Both the position numbers and the translations under genes were made by a program. Below are positions 5,751 to 13,513 of a DNA stretch of 47,977 nt, one piece after another (positions within the stretch are counted from its first letter, which is position 1; each line of letters opens with the position of its first letter). The notes beneath the pieces are model-generated. The model did no database searches and was not told where the DNA came from. It was given only the letters and a program-made list of their open reading frames with translations. Origin of the DNA: Candidatus Hydrogenedentota bacterium (GTDB lineage: Bacteria > Hydrogenedentota > Hydrogenedentia > Hydrogenedentales > JAGMZX01); assembly GCA_018005585.1 (NCBI GenBank), contig JAGMZX010000002.1, forward strand, positions 1 through 47,977, read 5' to 3'.

Positions 5751-7712
5751 TTACTCGTCGGTTTTGTCTTCGGCGTTTTGCGGGGCCTGGGTTTCGCGTT
5801 CGCGCATGATGCGCTCGTATTCGAGGGGATGGCGCGCCTTAAAGTCTTCTTCGGTGATGTGGCCGGTGATCCAGGACCAGTTCATCGGGTAGGTGTGCGG
5901 GTCGAAGATCATGTAGTAGAGGTGCCAGATGATGATGGTGAGCACGGCGAGCCACGCCTCGTAGAAGTGAATCAGGGCGACGACGTCGAGGGCGAGTTTG
6001 GGCAGGAACTTGAGGAATGTGTTGGCGAACCACATGCAGAACCCGGTGACGATCATGAGCAGCGTGCCCCACCACATGCCCCAGTATTCGAATTTCTCGA
6101 TGTAGCTGTAGCGGTCGAAGCGGGGCTCCTTCCTGGCGAGTCCGAAGGCGTAGCCCAGGTTCCAGAACACGTCCTTGAGGTCCTTGATCCGGAACCAGAG
6201 CGCGAGCAGTTCGCGGCGGCCGGACCTGGTGAACAGCAGGTAGCAGGCATTGCTCACGGCGATGCCCACGAGCACGACCGCGGCGATGCGGTGGACGACG
6301 CCGCGCGCGGCGAGGCCCGCTTCGCCCGGGAAGATGACCTTGGCCCACCAGGCCTCGGGGTAGCGCAGCGCAAAGCCGGATACCGAGAGGGCAATGAACG
6401 CGACGGTCAGCACCATGTGCCCGATGGTGAGGCCGGTGGGGAAGCGGCGGTGGGTACCCTCGCCGCCGAGTTCCTGCTTGAACTTGCGCAGCGCGTGCCG
6501 GCCCATCATGAGCGTGTTGTGGAAGACCATGCCGCCGACGACGGCGAAAATCAGGATGATGTAGGCGAGCCGCACGATACCGAGGGCCTTCTGGCCCGGG
6601 TCGGTGGGCATGATGTGGACGGCGCCCACGGCGAAGTTGGGGTTCGCGTTCGAGTGGCATTGCCCGCAGGTCTTGGGCAGGTTCGAGACGTGCGTCGACG
6701 ACGCCGGGTCGAGATGGGGCAGGATCAGGTGGGTGCCGTGGCAGCTGGTGCAACTCGCCACGACTTGGGAGCCGGCCGCGCCGGCGAGCCCGTGGTAGCT
6801 GTCCATGTAGCTGGCTTGACGCATGGTCTCGATGCCGAACCGGGTCATGATGCGTTCGTCGTCGTGGCAGTTCGGGCAGGTGGACCGGGCCACTTGCTGC
6901 CGGTTCACCGTGGAAGTGCGCTCTTCGGGCGCTTCAATGCTGTGTTCGCCGTGGCAGTCCACGCACGTGGGCGCGAAACGCACGCCCGCGGCCAGCGCCT
7001 TGCCGTGAATGCTTTGCTCGAACTCGGCCAGCTCCCGCGCGTGGCACTCGCCGCAGGTCTTCGGAATGTTCGCGCGGTACACGCGGGAGTCCGGGTCTTG
7101 CGATGGCAGCAGGTCGTGCGTGCCGTGACAGCCCGTGCAACTGGCCGCGTCCAGATTCCCCTTCTCGAATATGGCCCGCCCGTGTACGCTCTTCATGTAT
7201 TTCCCGGACGGGTTCGCGACGGCGATCAGGTGCGCCTTGACGAGCGCGGGGTCCGAGTGGCATTTGCCGCAGGTCGCGGGTTGATTGCGCGGGTGCGTGC
7301 CGGCGAGCGGGTCGCTGGCCGGGCGCATGTCGTGGGTCCCGTGACAACTGGCGCAGGAAGCGGCGCTATGATCGCCGTTCGCGAGGGCGCGCCCGTGCAG
7401 GCTTTCCCGGTATTGCCCGGTTTCCTCGTGGCAGTTGCCGCAGTCCACCGGCAGCAGCGGCGTGTCATGCGGCAGGTCGGGTATGTCCGCGTGACACTCG
7501 ATGCATTGCATGCCGCCGTGCACGGATTCCTGGTAGACGGAATCGTCGACGTACAGGGACAACGTGGTTCCGTCGGGCCGCGTCATATGCAGATCGGGGT
7601 CTTCGTGGCAGAACAGGCAGTCTGCGTTTTCCTGCGCGCGGGCGGCGAGCGGGGCCGCGCACAGTAATGCGCAGCACAACACCGCCGCGCGTTTCCCCAT
7701 GGTATTTCGCAT
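5751..7712 (-). CDS. 11-heme cytochrome c fused to cytochrome b561-like membrane module
   Basis: This is a 653-residue protein. A Sec signal peptide (residues 1-26) is followed by a periplasmic domain with eleven CXXCH motifs: CLFCH at 32, CIECH at 70, then CGNCH, CASCH, CGKCH, CTGCH, CGECH, CVDCH, CPNCH, CTSCH and CGQCH at 349. The C-terminal part has about five membrane helices (roughly 380-400, 428-448, 471-495, 545-565, 580-602) with helix histidines H398, H432, H474, H582 and H597 suited to b-heme ligation, as in cytochrome b561-type quinol oxidoreductases. Likely role (inference): moving electrons between the quinone pool and a periplasmic multiheme wire. The ATG at 7712 was chosen because a GGGAG-type site precedes it; the next Met is at 7700. 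The gene is divergent from the heme-sensor kinase. Confidence 0.9.
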   Translation of the reverse strand: MRNTMGKRAAVLCCALLCAAPLAARAQENADCLFCHEDPDLHMTRPDGTTLSLYVDDSVYQESVHGGMQCIECHADIPDLPHDTPLLPVDCGNCHEETGQYRESLHGRALANGDHSAASCASCHGTHDMRPASDPLAGTHPRNQPATCGKCHSDPALVKAHLIAVANPSGKYMKSVHGRAIFEKGNLDAASCTGCHGTHDLLPSQDPDSRVYRANIPKTCGECHARELAEFEQSIHGKALAAGVRFAPTCVDCHGEHSIEAPEERTSTVNRQQVARSTCPNCHDDERIMTRFGIETMRQASYMDSYHGLAGAAGSQVVASCTSCHGTHLILPHLDPASSTHVSNLPKTCGQCHSNANPNFAVGAVHIMPTDPGQKALGIVRLAYIILIFAVVGGMVFHNTLMMGRHALRKFKQELGGEGTHRRFPTGLTIGHMVLTVAFIALSVSGFALRYPEAWWAKVIFPGEAGLAARGVVHRIAAVVLVGIAVSNACYLLFTRSGRRELLALWFRIKDLKDVFWNLGYAFGLARKEPRFDRYSYIEKFEYWGMWWGTLLMIVTGFCMWFANTFLKFLPKLALDVVALIHFYEAWLAVLTIIIWHLYYMIFDPHTYPMNWSWITGHITEEDFKARHPLEYERIMRERETQAPQNAEDKTDE

Positions 7713-8076
7713 CAGCGTTACAGCTCCCTTTTCGCGACAGCGGCCCCACGGTTTCGCGCTATTGCGCATGACGGGCCGCTTCCCGGCAGACACGACCAGC
7801 GCCGGGCCGACAAACAATACGAAAAACGGAGGGGCGATTGCATCCGTGAAAAATCGAAGCAGCCCGCGCCCGCTGGGGATTTTTCCCTGATGTCCGCATG
7901 GGGCGCCGCGGCCGCTTCCGCCGGTCCGGGGGTTCGCGCGGCGCCCCGGCCGTGTTTTTCGCAGTTTTGTTCTGATATCATGGGCTATTCGCAGTGTGCC
8001 CTGTTGCGTTGGGTCCGCACGATGCCAAGAAACTTCCGGATGCGCGCCGGGCACTTCACATAAGGAAACGGGAGCG
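7713..8076. promoter_or_regulatory. Divergent intergenic region, cytochrome / sensor kinase
   Basis: This 364-bp gap between the divergent multiheme cytochrome and the kinase must hold both promoters. I see no coding frame that continues a known protein. An interrupted repeat GGGA-TTTT-TCCC lies near 7876-7887. A TATCAT -10-like hexamer at about 7976-7981 on the plus strand has no good -35. If the adjacent NarL-type regulator controls this cluster, its sites should lie here, but none can be named by eye. Confidence 0.4.
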
Positions 8077-9621
8077 GTGACGCTGAGAAACACCGGCCGC
8101 GGCGTTGCGTTTCGGTTGCTGTGGCGCGTGCTTTGCGTGCCGATCTTCGTCAAGATCATCGGCGTGGGGCTGGTCGTGACCGCGCTGTTCGGCAGTGTCG
8201 CCTTCTATGAAAGCCGCGCCGGCATCTACCGGACCCATTACCGCATCCACGGGCGCAAGGCGCTCTCGGTCGCCTCGGCTTTGTCGCGCAACATCGAAGC
8301 GCACATACGTTCGATGAACCTGCCCGCGGTGGATGCCGCCCTGGACCGTTCCATGTCGGTGGTCCCGGACGTGCGTTACGCAATCGTGCAGGACACCGGG
8401 GGCAACATCCTCTCCCATGGGTTCACGTTTCCCAGGGATGTCCCGCCGGACCTCGCCTCGCGCGGCGAAGAACTGTGTGCGTCGTGCCACCCCGCCACTG
8501 CGTCGACGGAGATTGCGTCCGAGCTGGTCGAGACGCCCTCAGACCTGGATTTTCCCGCGGGCGAGATGCGCGAATACCATAAGGCGGACCGCCTCATCGT
8601 CGAGGCGCGCGTGCCGATTGGGCCCGAACCGCTCGGCGTGGTGCGCCTCGGTGTCGGCGACACGCTCATCGCGGACGAGTTGACCGCCATCAGCCGGTCC
8701 ATGATCATGGCGCTCGCGACCTGCGCGGCCCTGGGCATTCTGCTTGCTCTCGGGCTTGCCTATCTGATCGTGCGCCCGATCCACAACCTTGTTGAGGCGA
8801 CAAACCAGATCCGCGAAGGCGATTTCAAGGCGCGCGCGCAGGTCTTTTCCGGTGACGAGATTGGGGAACTGAGCACGGCCTTGAATCAGATGGCGGAGGG
8901 CCTGGACAACTACAAGCAGGACGCCCTGGAGAAAGACAAGGCGCGCGTCTTGCTCATCGGCAAGATCGTGCAGGCGCAGGAGGAAGAGCGCAAGAATATT
9001 TCGCGCGAGTTGCACGACCATTTCGGGCAGAGCCTGTCGAACGTGCTGCTGAGCGTGGAGGCCCTGAGCAAAGACTCTCCGGACAGGCCGGACCGCCTGG
9101 CCGCGCTGCGCCGGTCCATTCGCGCGCTTATCGACGATGTGCGCCGCATGGCGTGGGACGCCCGCCCCTCCATCCTCGACGATTACGGCATCGACCACGC
9201 GCTGGCCCGCTACGTCGAGGAGATATCCAAGCGTGTGGCCTTCCCCATTGATTATCAGTGCGTGTTGCCGCCGGACGCCGAACGCTTGCCCTCGGAGATT
9301 GAAGTGACGCTGTATCGCATTGCGCAGGAGGCGGTCACGAACATTATCCGTCATGCGGGCGCGGGCCAGGCCAGTATCATTCTGCTGCGACATGACCACG
9401 AAGTGAGCCTGATTGTGGAGGATGACGGGCAGGGATTCGACCTGCACGCCGTGCAGCGGCCCGGCGATACCGCACTGGGGCTGATTGGCATGGAGGAACG
9501 CGCCGCGCTTGTCGGCGGCGATTTCGCGGTGGTGTCCCGGCCGGGCGCGGGCACAACGGTCCGGGTGCGGATACCCGTGCGTGAGGAAACTTATGCGGAT
9601 ACGGCTATTCATAGCGGATGA
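8077..9621 (+). CDS. NarX-like sensor histidine kinase with CXXCH heme motif
   Basis: This 514-residue membrane kinase has TM1 at about 22-45, a periplasmic sensor at 46-205, TM2 at about 207-232, then a HAMP linker beginning VRPIHNLVEATNQI. A HisKA_3 box follows with phospho-accepting His313 in SRELHDHFGQSL, then a HATPase domain with N-box VTNIIRHAG, G1 VEDDGQGFD and G2 LGLIGMEERAALVGG. The sensor contains CASCH (134-138), a single c-type heme attachment motif, so it probably binds one covalent heme and senses redox state, NO, CO or O2 (inference). Established parallel: periplasmic heme-c sensor domains are known in Geobacter signalling proteins. I start at GTG 8077 behind a GGAG-type site, giving a basic N-terminus. 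Its 3' end overlaps the response regulator by 29 bp. Confidence 0.9.
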   Translation: MTLRNTGRGVAFRLLWRVLCVPIFVKIIGVGLVVTALFGSVAFYESRAGIYRTHYRIHGRKALSVASALSRNIEAHIRSMNLPAVDAALDRSMSVVPDVRYAIVQDTGGNILSHGFTFPRDVPPDLASRGEELCASCHPATASTEIASELVETPSDLDFPAGEMREYHKADRLIVEARVPIGPEPLGVVRLGVGDTLIADELTAISRSMIMALATCAALGILLALGLAYLIVRPIHNLVEATNQIREGDFKARAQVFSGDEIGELSTALNQMAEGLDNYKQDALEKDKARVLLIGKIVQAQEEERKNISRELHDHFGQSLSNVLLSVEALSKDSPDRPDRLAALRRSIRALIDDVRRMAWDARPSILDDYGIDHALARYVEEISKRVAFPIDYQCVLPPDAERLPSEIEVTLYRIAQEAVTNIIRHAGAGQASIILLRHDHEVSLIVEDDGQGFDLHAVQRPGDTALGLIGMEERAALVGGDFAVVSRPGAGTTVRVRIPVREETYADTAIHSG

Positions 9622-10243
9622 CCACGCGGTTTTCCGCAGCGGCTTGCGCGCCTTGCTCGAACAGGAGGAGGAATTCCTTGTCGTAGGCGAAACGGGCTCG
9701 GGCGTGGATACGCTGAAGCTCCTCAACGAAAAAGACGTGGATGTCCTGCTCCTGGACATCAGCATGCCGGGTTTGCCGGGTCAGCGCGTCGCGCGCGAAG
9801 CCCTGCGAGCGCACCCCGGCCTGTCAATCGTGGTGCTCACGATGCATGAAGACGAATACTACCTCCAGGAGTTGCTGCGCGTCGGCGTCCGCGGTTACGT
9901 GCTGAAGAAATCGACCGGCTCGGAACTGGTCCAGGCGATCCGGGCGGTCCATCGCGGCAACGTCTATATCGACCCCACGCTCGCGGGCCTGGTGGTGTCT
10001 CCCTACGTGGGGCGGCCGGCGTCGCGCGCGCGCGACCCGGTCACGTTGCTCACGCCGCGCGAGAAGGAGGTGTGCACCCTGCTCGCATACGGCCACACCA
10101 ATGCGGAGGTCGCGGAAAAACTGCGCATTTCCGACCGCACCGTTGAAACCCACCGCACCAACATCATGGCCAAGCTGGAACTCAAGAGCCGCGCCGACCT
10201 CGTGCGCTATGCCATCGACAACGGTCTGCTCAAGTTCGACTGA
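9593..10243 (+). CDS. NarL/FixJ-family response regulator
   Basis: This 216-residue regulator has a receiver domain with acidic pocket D9/D10, phospho-acceptor Asp55 in LLLDISMPG and conserved Lys in GYVLKKSTG. A LuxR-type HTH follows with LTPREKEVCTLLA and the recognition segment SDRTVETHRTNIMAKL. It is the cognate partner of the heme-motif kinase: the ATG at 9593 lies inside the kinase gene (29-bp overlap), with GAGGAAA just upstream, so the two are translationally coupled. Given its neighbours it likely controls the multiheme cytochrome genes on either side (inference). Confidence 0.94.
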   Translation: MRIRLFIADDHAVFRSGLRALLEQEEEFLVVGETGSGVDTLKLLNEKDVDVLLLDISMPGLPGQRVAREALRAHPGLSIVVLTMHEDEYYLQELLRVGVRGYVLKKSTGSELVQAIRAVHRGNVYIDPTLAGLVVSPYVGRPASRARDPVTLLTPREKEVCTLLAYGHTNAEVAEKLRISDRTVETHRTNIMAKLELKSRADLVRYAIDNGLLKFD

Positions 10244-10449
10244 GCGCGGATTCGCCCGTTTTTCATGTGTTTCTTCGGGCATCCGCCGGGGCACAGCGTA
10301 TGGTGGATTTATACGGATGTGCGGCGCGGCGTTCGCAGGTATCATTTCCGCGTGTCTTGCGTGAATAATTCGCGCGCAGCCGCCGTCAGGCATAGGAAAC
10401 GCAAGGGCGGCGGATGCGCCCAGCAGAAGAAGAGGAGCACTGGACAACG

Positions 10450-11046
10450 ATGAAGATGACGGTCTTTCTGGGACTGGTAATGACGGTAGTGATCTTGCTG
10501 CCCCTGGTGGAACTGACCAGCGTTACGGCTGAGGGACAGGCGACTTACGTTTCGGCCAGCAAGTGCAAGATGTGCCACAACAGCAAGGCGGAAGGCGAAG
10601 TATGGAACGCGTGGAAGGCCACTGCGCACGCTCGCGCCCTTGAAACGCTATCGGGCGAACAGTCCTTGGCCCTGGCGAAGGAAAAGGGCCTGACCACGCC
10701 GCCATCCGAAGCCCCGGAATGCCTCCGCTGCCATGTGACCGCCTTCGACCCCGCCACCGGCAAGCCCGCGCCCGGACTGGATGTGAAAGACGGCGTCCAG
10801 TGCGAAGCGTGCCATGGCCCGGCTTCCCTGCACATTGAAGACGGCAAGCGCAAGAAAAAAGGCGAAGAGGTGGATATGTCGAAGAACCAGACACACCCCG
10901 AAGTCAGTGATTGCGTCGTTTGCCACAACGATCAGAGCCCGACGTGGAACCCTGAGCGTTACACGCTCAAGGACGGCACGAAGTCCGGTTTCGATTTCGA
11001 GCAGGCGTGGGAGAAGATCAAGCACGGCCCGCCCGCCGCGAGTTGA
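10450..11046 (+). CDS. Tetraheme cytochrome c554-type protein
   Basis: This 198-residue exported cytochrome has a signal or anchor helix (residues 3-22) and four CXXCH sites: CKMCH (39-43), CLRCH (91-95), CEACH (118-122) and CVVCH (155-159). Spacing and the motif GVQCEACHGPASLH match the cytochrome c554 family of periplasmic electron carriers. A Lys-rich loop (KRKKKGEE) follows heme 3. The ATG at 10450 directly precedes the hydrophobic segment; an ATG 36 bp upstream in frame is possible but adds an acidic leader. It lies 206 bp after the regulator and 340 bp before the decaheme gene. The likely role is a periplasmic shuttle between the inner-membrane cytochrome and the surface conduit (inference). 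Confidence 0.9.
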   Translation: MKMTVFLGLVMTVVILLPLVELTSVTAEGQATYVSASKCKMCHNSKAEGEVWNAWKATAHARALETLSGEQSLALAKEKGLTTPPSEAPECLRCHVTAFDPATGKPAPGLDVKDGVQCEACHGPASLHIEDGKRKKKGEEVDMSKNQTHPEVSDCVVCHNDQSPTWNPERYTLKDGTKSGFDFEQAWEKIKHGPPAAS

Positions 11047-11080
11047 CCATCCCGGTTTTATAGAAAAGTAATGTCTATCT

Positions 11081-11112
11081 GGAAGCGCCCGGCCCGGCCG
11101 CCGGGCGCTTCC
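11081..11112 (+). terminator. Strong hairpin after tetraheme cytochrome gene
   Basis: GGAAGCGCCCGGC (11081-11093) and GCCGGGCGCTTCC (11100-11112) form a perfect 13-bp stem with a 6-nt loop. TGCGTTATG follows instead of a U-tract; the same nine bases follow the hairpin after the decaheme gene. Confidence 0.55.
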
Positions 11113-11386
11113 TGCGTTATGCGCCTGAAAGAGACCGCGTAGTTTTCCCGTAGGCCGCGCCGCGAATATCCATGCTTTCCCGGATGATTCGATGGCCGTG
11201 ATGGCTTATGCTTAGCCACGTTCATGGTGGGTTTTCATAGATGGGTTCCGGCGTGTGGGAACAAGATCATCACGCGATTGCGCGATAGCCTGAATAGGGA
11301 CCGCGGGCGGGTGAGAAGCCCGCGGTCCACGGAATCAAAACGGCTTGCCCAGCGGAGGCTGGGGGCCACAAGGAAGGGTCAAGTTC
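11113..11386 (+). promoter_or_regulatory. Long structured leader of the decaheme gene
   Basis: About 270 non-coding bases separate the upstream hairpin from the decaheme ATG. They contain a perfect 11-bp stem, GGACCGCGGGC (11298-11308) and GCCCGCGGTCC (11318-11328) with loop GGGTGAGAA, and an IR-like GGTTCC...GGGAAC around 11244-11265. AAGGAAGGG just before the ATG is the ribosome-binding site. It could be a cis-regulatory RNA or a terminator/attenuator. I could not match it to a known riboswitch class. Confidence 0.4.
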
Positions 11387-13513
11387 ATGGGAAAGCGGTT
11401 TAGACAAAGCGTATGCGGCGGGATATCAGGAAACCTGCTTCTCGTCATGGTATGCGGCCTGAGCGTATGCCTGATGGCGGGCTGCCCCCTCTTGCAGGGC
11501 CCTGCAGGCCCGACCGGTCCTGAAGGCCCCGAAGGCCCCGAAGGCCCCGAAGGCCCCGAAGGCCCGACAGGCCCTCCAGGTCCGGGCTTTGCATGGGCGC
11601 CGGGGCTGAATATCACCATTCAGTCCGTGACGATTCCCGCCGACCTGCGGCCGGAAGTCCGGTTTACCGCCAAGGACAACAAGGGCAACAATGTCGTCAA
11701 GGCGGAATTCACGGATGTCCGGCTCATGCTGGACTACCTGGAAGGCAGCGGCGTTGACAAGAGCGCCGTCAGCGGGCGGTACGTAAGCTACACACTCGCC
11801 AGCAACGGTCAGGCGACCACCGACTCGGCTCGTCTCAACGGCGTGACGCAGAATACGGACGGTTCGTTCACGTACAAGTTCGCCGCGGCGATTCCGGCCG
11901 GATATGATCCCGCTGCGACGCACCAGGTAGGCGGCCAGATTGGCCGCATGTACGTTGTGAACGGGAAGACGTATTTCGCAAATCCTGTTTTCACGTTCCG
12001 GCCCGACGGCGCTGCCGTGACACAGACGCGCGAGATCGTGGACACGGAGACCTGTAACGCGTGCCACACCCGCCTCGCGTTCCACGGCGGTGGCCGCCGT
12101 GAAGTTCAGTACTGCATCCTCTGCCACAACGAACAGAGCATTGACCCCGAGACGGGAAACACCGTGGACATGCCGGTGCTTATCCACAAGATTCACCGCG
12201 GCGAAAGCCTGCCCAGCGTGGAAGAGGGCGTTCCCTATCAGATCATTGGCCACGGCGGCTCGGTGAATGATTACTCTACCGTCGTTTTCCCGCAGGACAT
12301 CCGGAAGTGCGAGGTGTGCCACCAGAGCGCGCCGCAGGCCGACGCCTGGAAGACGACGCCGTCGCGCGCGGGCTGCGGTTCCTGCCACGATCGCACCTGG
12401 TTCGGCGACCCGGACGAAACCCCGGAAGGTTTTGAAAATCACCCGCTCGATTTCGAACAGGCGGATGACAGCCAATGCAAGACTTGCCACACGCCGGATG
12501 CCCCGGGAATCTCCCCGATCAGCCTGGCGCACCGCCGGCCCGTCGAGCAAGAGGAAGCTCCCGGTCTCGCGTTGGATATCGTGGGCGTGAGCACCAACCC
12601 CGCCGACGGGACGCTGCAGATCACCTTCACGGCGGCGAACGGCGACGGCACGCCCGTTACGGCCCTTTCCAGCCTGAGCTCCGTTTCCACGCTCGTGGCC
12701 TATCCCGCCACGGACTACGAAACCTTCGTGCGTGAAGCCATTCAGGGCAGCGGCGGCCCCAACGGCACGTTGGACACGAACGCCAGCCCGACCGGCACGT
12801 ACGTGTACACGTATCGGGCCAAGCTGCCCGCCGGCACGGGCGCCACCTTCGCGGTCGCGATGGAAGGGCGGCGTACCTTCGAATCGGACGGCGCCAACGT
12901 CACGCAGGGCACTTCGTCCAATGGCCTCACGTACTTCACGTTGGATGGTGCCGAACCCGAGCCGCGCCGTGAAATTGTGGACCCGGAAAAGTGCAACGCC
13001 TGCCACGGCGAGATGCGCTTCCACGGTGAGCAGCGCTATGGCGTCGACCTTTGCGTCATGTGCCACAATCCGAACACGACCGATATCACGCGCCGGCCCG
13101 CCGAAGAGATTGCCGGCGCCACGACGATAAACTTCAAGGACATGATCCACGGCATCCACACGGGCGAGGAACTGGAAGGCCCGTTGACCATCTACGGATA
13201 TGGCAACGTGCCGCACGACTTCACGGAAGTGCGTTTCCCCGGCGACCGCCGCGACTGCGAGATGTGCCACCTGCCCGGTACCTATGAGCTGCCGGTCCCC
13301 GAAGGCGCCCTCTCCACCGTTGTCGACAACACGGTTGCGGTCACGGAAAAGCTGCCCGAACGCGCGGCGTGCACCTCCTGCCACGACGGCGTTCTGGCCA
13401 ACTTCCATGCCATGCTGAATACGGATGAAGGCGCTGGTGTCGAGACCTGCGCGGTCTGTCACGGCGCGGATGCGGACTTCGCCGTTGAATCCGTGCACGA
13501 AATCGAGCCTTGA
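11387..13513 (+). CDS. OmcA/MtrC-type decaheme outer-membrane lipoprotein
   Basis: This 708-residue lipoprotein has a signal peptide ending in lipobox LMAGC with Cys33, then ten Gly-Pro-X triplets (38-67), a beta-rich domain, five CXXCH (223, 243, 308, 330, 364), a second beta-rich domain and five more CXXCH (536, 556, 624, 662, 688). Two split beta-barrel/pentaheme halves are the layout of OmcA/MtrC-family surface cytochromes, which pass electrons to extracellular minerals or other acceptors. Duplicated HKIHRGE / HGIHTGEE segments show the internal repeat. The ATG at 11387 has AGGAAGGG about 7 bases upstream. No MtrB-like porin or MtrA is in the window, so the outer-membrane crossing partner must be elsewhere or different. 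Confidence 0.95.
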   Translation: MGKRFRQSVCGGISGNLLLVMVCGLSVCLMAGCPLLQGPAGPTGPEGPEGPEGPEGPEGPTGPPGPGFAWAPGLNITIQSVTIPADLRPEVRFTAKDNKGNNVVKAEFTDVRLMLDYLEGSGVDKSAVSGRYVSYTLASNGQATTDSARLNGVTQNTDGSFTYKFAAAIPAGYDPAATHQVGGQIGRMYVVNGKTYFANPVFTFRPDGAAVTQTREIVDTETCNACHTRLAFHGGGRREVQYCILCHNEQSIDPETGNTVDMPVLIHKIHRGESLPSVEEGVPYQIIGHGGSVNDYSTVVFPQDIRKCEVCHQSAPQADAWKTTPSRAGCGSCHDRTWFGDPDETPEGFENHPLDFEQADDSQCKTCHTPDAPGISPISLAHRRPVEQEEAPGLALDIVGVSTNPADGTLQITFTAANGDGTPVTALSSLSSVSTLVAYPATDYETFVREAIQGSGGPNGTLDTNASPTGTYVYTYRAKLPAGTGATFAVAMEGRRTFESDGANVTQGTSSNGLTYFTLDGAEPEPRREIVDPEKCNACHGEMRFHGEQRYGVDLCVMCHNPNTTDITRRPAEEIAGATTINFKDMIHGIHTGEELEGPLTIYGYGNVPHDFTEVRFPGDRRDCEMCHLPGTYELPVPEGALSTVVDNTVAVTEKLPERAACTSCHDGVLANFHAMLNTDEGAGVETCAVCHGADADFAVESVHEIEP
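11498..11587 (+). repeat. Collagen-like Gly-Pro-X coding repeat
   Basis: Ten Gly-X-Y triplets follow the lipid-anchored cysteine; at DNA level GAAGGCCCC is repeated four times (11522-11557) with a fifth copy ending in G (11558-11566). In-frame 9-bp units could vary in number by slippage. It probably forms a short rigid or trimerising stalk for the heme domains (inference). Confidence 0.85.

Follow-up and report, generated by a model that had tools for sequence, protein, structure and literature searches.

A candidate two-locus regulon for extracellular electron transfer with a c-heme sensor kinase in Candidatus Hydrogenedentota

Five neighboring genes of a Candidatus Hydrogenedentota bacterium, here called A to E, encode three multiheme cytochromes (A, D and E), a heme-motif sensor kinase (B) and a response regulator (C). 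Do these genes make up a complete pathway for extracellular electron transfer (EET), and where would the electrons cross the outer membrane? A first-pass annotation of the window (the whole stretch of DNA analyzed, 47,977 nucleotides) had read them as a compact EET module with its own sensor. We put at roughly 70% the probability that the locus makes up half of an EET regulon spread over two loci, that is, a porin-cytochrome pathway of a new type under heme-Cache two-component control. The evidence below supports reading the genes as an EET set that has a c-heme sensor of its own. That of a compact, complete module has to be given up: the locus is one of at least two candidate-regulon loci, and an NrfH-type dehydrogenase, a barrel and two lipoproteins are encoded on another contig, C10. 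The host genome is a draft (6.08 Mb, 288 contigs, 97% complete), and the relatives compared with it are metagenome assemblies. The features are collected in Table 1.

Table 1. Features of the locus (positions in the window), of contig C10 (L057 = C10:17000-36999) and of other loci discussed in the text
Feature	Position	Strand	Remarks
A, inner-membrane multiheme b/c fusion, 653 aa	5751..7712	-	PF14522, PF01292
Element TTTTCACGGATG upstream of A	7841..7852	-	-10-like TATTGT 21 nt downstream
B, heme-motif sensor histidine kinase	8077..9621	+	HAMP + HisKA_3 + HATPase_c; open frame from 7996
C, NarL/FixJ-type response regulator	9593..10243	+	PF00072 (Response_reg) + PF00196 (GerE)
Element TTTATACGGATG upstream of D	10308..10319	+	-10-like TATCAT 20 nt downstream
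D, tetraheme cytochrome c554-type, signal peptide	10450..11046	+	PF13435 (Cytochrome_C554)
Element CTTTCCCGGATG upstream of E	11175..11186	+	-10-like TATGCT 20 nt downstream
E, decaheme OmcA/MtrC-family lipoprotein	11387..13513	+	TIGR03507; lipobox LMAGC
Collagen-like (Gly-Pro-X)n tract in E, ~9 triplets	11498..11581	+	shortly past lipid-anchor Cys
5-heme NapC/NrfH-like membrane protein	L057 7469-9070	-	PF03264, 33.8 bits vs cut-off 24.1
6-heme lipoprotein, distantly MtrA-like	L057 9255-10106	+	first gene of operon divergent from 5-heme gene
Heme-free barrel protein, 546 aa	L057 10113-11753	+	signal peptide; second in operon
14-heme lipoprotein	L057 11773-12795	+	third in operon
NrfHA nitrite reductase pair	L060 2061-4080 (G000:C35)		separate contig
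19-heme b561-type fusions	L045 7920-10706; L152 2405-5242; L163 5405-8323; L166 7906-10731		
Nine-heme Ig/BACON/PKD proteins	L054 6522-9182; L038 10937-13504		promoter element present at L054

Our reading of the five genes and of their 26 CXXCH motifs (11 in A, one in B, none in C, four in D and ten in E) agrees with the first-pass annotation apart from gene starts. That of A lies at about position 7712 and not at 8159; A and B are therefore divergent and do not overlap. Elsewhere in the 48-kb window, the CXXCH-bearing open stretches hold one motif each. The product of A joins Cytochrome_C7/c3 repeats to a membrane part of the Ni_hydr_CYTB (b561) family with about five to six transmembrane helices. 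All nine ortholog sequences read (9/9) have 11 CXXCH motifs. The 27 invariant His comprise the 11 within these motifs, 12 others in the c domain and four in the membrane domain, the last being sufficient for two b-hemes. CbcL of Geobacter sulfurreducens, an inner-membrane quinone oxidoreductase for EET, carries nine c-hemes and a di-heme b membrane domain (PMC9129911); compared by architecture, A has the same fusion of a c domain to a di-heme b domain, with 11 c-hemes rather than nine. It is probably a quinol dehydrogenase built along the lines of CbcL. Many relatives encode, along with A, a b561-type fusion with 19 hemes and more than 900 amino acids; none was found in the host genome at the threshold used.

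D and E belong to known cytochrome families. D (open frame from 10414, likely start 10450) scores 64.9 bits against the Cytochrome_C554 profile, for which the cut-off is 20.8, and matches Nitrosomonas cytochrome c554 among PDB sequences (E 2.5e-9). Four CXXCH motifs are present in 25 of 25 sequences, and an alignment of 26 sequences shows three further conserved His for the four hemes. To judge from its sequence, D is probably a soluble periplasmic carrier. E (open frame from 11345, likely start 11387) scores 462 bits against TIGR03507 over residues 102-718 (cut-off 209.3), and the solved structures that it matches are MtrF, OmcA, UndA and MtrC. It has 11 conserved His in addition to its ten CXXCH motifs, and its family has ten hemes throughout, with six in contig-end fragments. 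The lipobox of E stands after a hydrophobic stretch, and a lipobox-like site is predicted in 20 of 26 E sequences. E is probably a surface reductase. Its Gly-Pro-X tract is possibly a stalk; such tracts were seen in five of 678 proteins scanned, every one an E, and other E orthologs have EGEGEG, DPDPDP or TPTPTP linkers or additional N-terminal segments. In some relatives E is adjoined by nine-heme proteins that begin with Ig, BACON or PKD domains, possibly alternative surface cytochromes.

Where is the outer-membrane crossing? The first-pass annotation had noted that an MtrA/MtrB porin-cytochrome pair was missing, and this holds for the genome as a whole: genome-wide profile searches gave a best E-value of 1.8 for the MtrB/PioB barrel (PF11854), under the cut-off, and at best 50.4-51.8 bits for the decaheme MtrA/DmsE family (TIGR03508), against a cut-off of 192.2. 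It had left the choice between a different crossing partner and one coded elsewhere, and both appear to be true. The best TIGR03508 match is a 6-heme protein on C10, and this weak match pointed to that contig, where a block of four genes in two divergent operons includes the 5-heme protein (four predicted transmembrane segments), a barrel and a 14-heme lipoprotein. The C-terminus of the barrel (...YWRVQAGYTIRF) has the typical barrel signature. The protein matches neither Pfam nor NCBIfam families, and its profile retrieved nothing at E<=1 from the PDB sequences. An AlphaFold2 model of a homolog, built with a 21-sequence alignment, has 22 strands (mean pLDDT 82), and a Foldseek search with this model returned generic outer-membrane barrels alone. 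By its sequence the barrel looks like a new family, with OmbB/ExtB and the Verrucomicrobia porins compared by description alone. Its closest homologs lie in Candidatus Hydrogenedentota loci (best 73% identity), with one further record labeled 'uncultured bacterium'. A seeming occurrence beyond the phylum, on a contig labeled Nitrospiraceae bacterium OTbin.67 (L067), was set aside, as the matching barrel end is found in a genome of the same order (G054:C157) and the label seems to be wrong or out of date.

The two lipoproteins of the block differ in how clearly they can be placed. Outside its CXXCH motifs the 14-heme protein conserves 14 His, which would allow bis-His ligation of each heme; its heme number is constant, and 21 of 27 sequences have a lipobox-like site. 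For the 6-heme protein a crude rule finds a recognizable lipobox in nine of 24 sequences, which leaves its side of the membrane uncertain. In almost all of the loci read, this protein, with six or eight hemes, is the neighbor of the barrel. As predicted from sequence, the arrangement has two of the features that PMC6148476 expects of an outer-membrane conduit, namely a barrel encoded together with cytochromes and redox lipoproteins (the 14-heme protein and E). For another, a periplasmic multiheme cytochrome in or at the barrel, the 6/8-heme protein and the soluble D are candidates.

How does this conduit compare with known ones? Two likenesses tie it to the Shewanella MtrCAB/OmcA system: E falls in the OmcA/MtrC family, and the 6-heme lipoprotein is distantly similar to MtrA/DmsE. 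In contrast to Shewanella, the host has neither an MtrB/PioB barrel nor a decaheme MtrA; its modeled 22-strand barrel is unmatched to any family, there is an extra 14-heme lipoprotein, and the gene for E lies away from that of the barrel. In the Geobacter OmaB-OmbB-OmcB and ExtABCD systems the barrel gene likewise stands between multiheme cytochromes, and ExtABCD resembles the host in having several lipoprotein cytochromes per conduit (PMC6148476). The host differs from the Geobacter conduits in its heme numbers (six or eight, and 14) and in its OmcA/MtrC-type partner, the barrels being compared by description. Freshwater Verrucomicrobia offer another uncultured lineage with a barrel adjoining a multiheme cytochrome. 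As far as the part of PMC5615132 used here goes, that barrel has at least 20 transmembrane motifs and lies beside an 8-heme periplasmic cytochrome, and neither an OmcA/MtrC partner nor a regulon is described; this comparison, too, is by description. Our literature search found no porin-cytochrome EET pathway described in Hydrogenedentota, in which Cyc2 has been reported (PMC9769843). Porin-cytochrome conduits are known in principle; the searches made here turned up no match for the barrel family, the set of hemes, the division into two loci or the regulon with its heme sensor. Since MtrB- and MtrA-type profiles fail in this genome, such lineages would escape surveys that depend on these profiles. 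The barrel would be a distinct solution for the passage of electrons through the outer membrane.

What connects the two loci? An upstream element, YTTHHHCGGATG, followed 20-21 nt downstream by a -10-like TAnnnT, precedes A, D, E and both divergent operons on C10. The element was first picked by eye in the upstream regions and tested afterwards; a search of the upstream regions for exact dyads had given weak repeats only. Across the 6.08 Mb of the genome the 12-mer alone has 32 matches, against 23 for a reversed control pattern. When TAnnnT is required at 20-21 nt, five of the 32 sites are left, and these are exactly the promoters of A, D and E and the two on C10. The same five came out on top of a matrix scan of 176 kb of host DNA, scoring 26.6-31.4 against 20.4 for the next site, with a matrix trained on sites from other species that were entered by hand. 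The element is absent at the other multiheme genes read in the host genome, including NrfHA on C35. Over the genomes with B, it stands upstream of 18 multiheme genes out of 84 and of one out of 360 further genes (p 3e-13); over those without B, it stands upstream of none of 62 multiheme genes (p 2e-5). Both p-values take genes as independent although the genomes are related, and therefore show the case at its strongest. An exact copy is lacking at the other 66 of the 84 multiheme genes, in part since many of them are internal to operons. In a sister species, a 4-heme cytochrome gene divergent from the conduit has the element near its start (L142 11755-12510).

Which protein reads the element? 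Because the element and the B-C pair are co-distributed across several families, C is the simplest candidate. That C binds the element is something we infer from this co-distribution only, and the binding protein could also be a different regulator or a sigma factor. The EET set might thus be real and the element be read by some other regulator or an alternative sigma factor, with B-C merely co-occurring. Such a reading would fit the position of the element, which abuts the -35 region at a fixed spacing as a sigma-factor site would, and the upstream region of B, which shows no clear copy at that spacing. It sits less well with the finding, made in several families, that the element stands near multiheme genes only where B exists, or with the adjacency of B-C to D in several genomes; that there are only five sites so arranged in 6 Mb also counts against a general promoter element. 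We regard a reader other than C as somewhat unlikely. With C as its reader, the promoter element would link an electron conduit to a c-heme sensor in a regulon that can be tested.

What might the sensor perceive? B has a periplasmic domain with one CXXCH between two transmembrane helices, followed by the HAMP-HisKA_3-HATPase_c module. C overlaps the end of B, and the C proteins of relatives are 59-93% identical to it and, in almost all relatives read, are encoded next to B. Among 13 B orthologs, both the CXXCH and a His 20 residues upstream of it are invariant. The sensor domain matches sCache_3_2 weakly in nine of the 13 (best E 0.0012) and has a weak profile match to CitA; a single-sequence model of low confidence (pLDDT 53) resembles the CitA/WalK domains. 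It is probably a Cache fold with an inserted heme motif, like the sCache_heme arrangement. A search of the 13 orthologs with PF11845 gave no match at E<=10, and for this reason we keep B out of the sCache_heme family. The sCache_heme (DUF3365/Tll0287) sensors, among them GSU0582 and GSU0935, share with B the fusion to a kinase and an extracytoplasmic domain, in B a probable Cache fold, with an invariant CXXCH (PMC12889525). Apart from being unmatched by PF11845, B differs from them in its extra invariant His, a possible second axial ligand. In the signaling-fused sCache_heme member that was tested, which binds NO tightly and has NO-sensor properties, water was proposed to occupy that ligand position (PMC12889525). 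The extra His in B would suggest a six-coordinate redox heme rather than NO-sensor properties. It is tempting to hypothesize, tentatively and with the odds somewhat against it, that a new class of conduit, found here only in Candidatus Hydrogenedentota, has its two genomic halves coordinated by a heme-Cache two-component system, and that this system uses a bis-His c-heme to follow the redox state of the periplasmic cytochrome pool, and not NO. If so, the pathway would read its own electron load.

The cytochromes could instead serve nitrogen-oxide chemistry, handling periplasmic nitrite or NO, with B as an NO sensor, a role put forward for signaling-fused sCache_heme domains. D is c554-like, and the namesake of its family, cytochrome c554, serves ammonia oxidation. 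A nitrite reductase, NrfA, is encoded in the host genome, and the tight NO binding of a signaling-fused heme-Cache domain (PMC12889525) would suit such a function. The NrfHA pair, however, lies apart on contig C35 and is without the promoter element, and a periplasmic acceptor needs no surface decaheme, barrel or 14-heme lipoprotein. A nitrogen-oxide function for the cytochromes is on these grounds quite improbable; since NrfHA lies apart and is not among the genes with the element, we set aside the view that the locus serves nitrite reduction. Even so, B may still respond to NO as its signal.

We return to the two-locus EET pathway. The parts, their families, their co-occurrence, the barrel model and the shared element are computed; localization is predicted from lipoboxes and signal peptides, and the electron direction, the role of C as binder and the signal are inferred. 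Electrons from the quinone pool would enter through A, with its 11 c-hemes and two b-hemes, and a second entry from the pool would be the NapC/NrfH-like 5-heme protein of C10. D would carry them to an outer-membrane conduit made up of the 6-heme MtrA-like lipoprotein, the 22-strand barrel and the 14-heme lipoprotein, and the surface decaheme E would reduce an acceptor outside the cell, which may be a mineral, humics or a partner cell. B would read a periplasmic signal (the redox state of its heme, or NO) and pass it to C, which would activate the YTTHHHCGGATG promoters of A, D, E and the two C10 operons. The same conduit might also work in the inward direction, taking electrons from Fe(II), minerals or partner cells. 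PioAB and MtoAB, the latter named in the title of PMC12016527, are porin-cytochrome systems that do so, and no feature of the sequence fixes the direction here. Against inward flow, the organisms most familiar for surface decahemes of the OmcA/MtrC type, and for inner-membrane cytochromes like CbcL (PMC9129911), are reducers; we consider it unlikely.

Do the relatives keep these genes together? Co-occurrence was examined in 68 genomes (60 for E). Among the barrel, A, B, D and E the p-values range from 1.5e-4 to 1e-13 (barrel-D 9e-14; D-E 1e-11; barrel-E 2e-10; barrel-A 2e-8; barrel-B 2e-6), and near-complete genomes mostly contain either none of the five or the full, or almost full, set. The exceptions are one genome with the barrel but without A, B, D and E (G003) and two that are one part short each (G021 and G054); these may be assembly gaps or real variation. 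B-C is missing in about half of the conduit-bearing genomes, so that the sensor is not obligatory. The first-pass annotation had made gene order in relatives the measure of its module, and here the outcome is divided: the genes are partly scattered, with E and the conduit apart in the sister species, but they co-occur tightly and have a common promoter element. A chance cluster of unrelated cytochrome genes, toward which the location of E elsewhere in the sister species might point, is hardly credible given the co-occurrence, the shared element and the complete cluster in one relative (G016).

In that relative, 24 kb of a single contig hold all six genes: barrel, A, E, D, C and B. The order 6/8-heme, barrel, 14-heme is kept in about 25 relatives; D often follows this conduit block, and E and the 5-heme gene are often close. 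In the sister species (G001), D-C-B-A stand together, with E and the conduit on other contigs; because E is away from A-D there, the linkage seen at the locus is partly particular to the host genome. Almost wherever they were read, B and C are direct neighbors, and several genomes have D close by. In the 24-kb cluster of G016, Cytochrom_C_asm and ResB-like proteins are encoded between the 5-heme gene and D (L034 13142-16849), probably a system II heme attachment pair inside the cluster. Two further relatives have a 13-heme class III-type cytochrome between D and C-B (L148 3653-4909 and L149 2869-4179).
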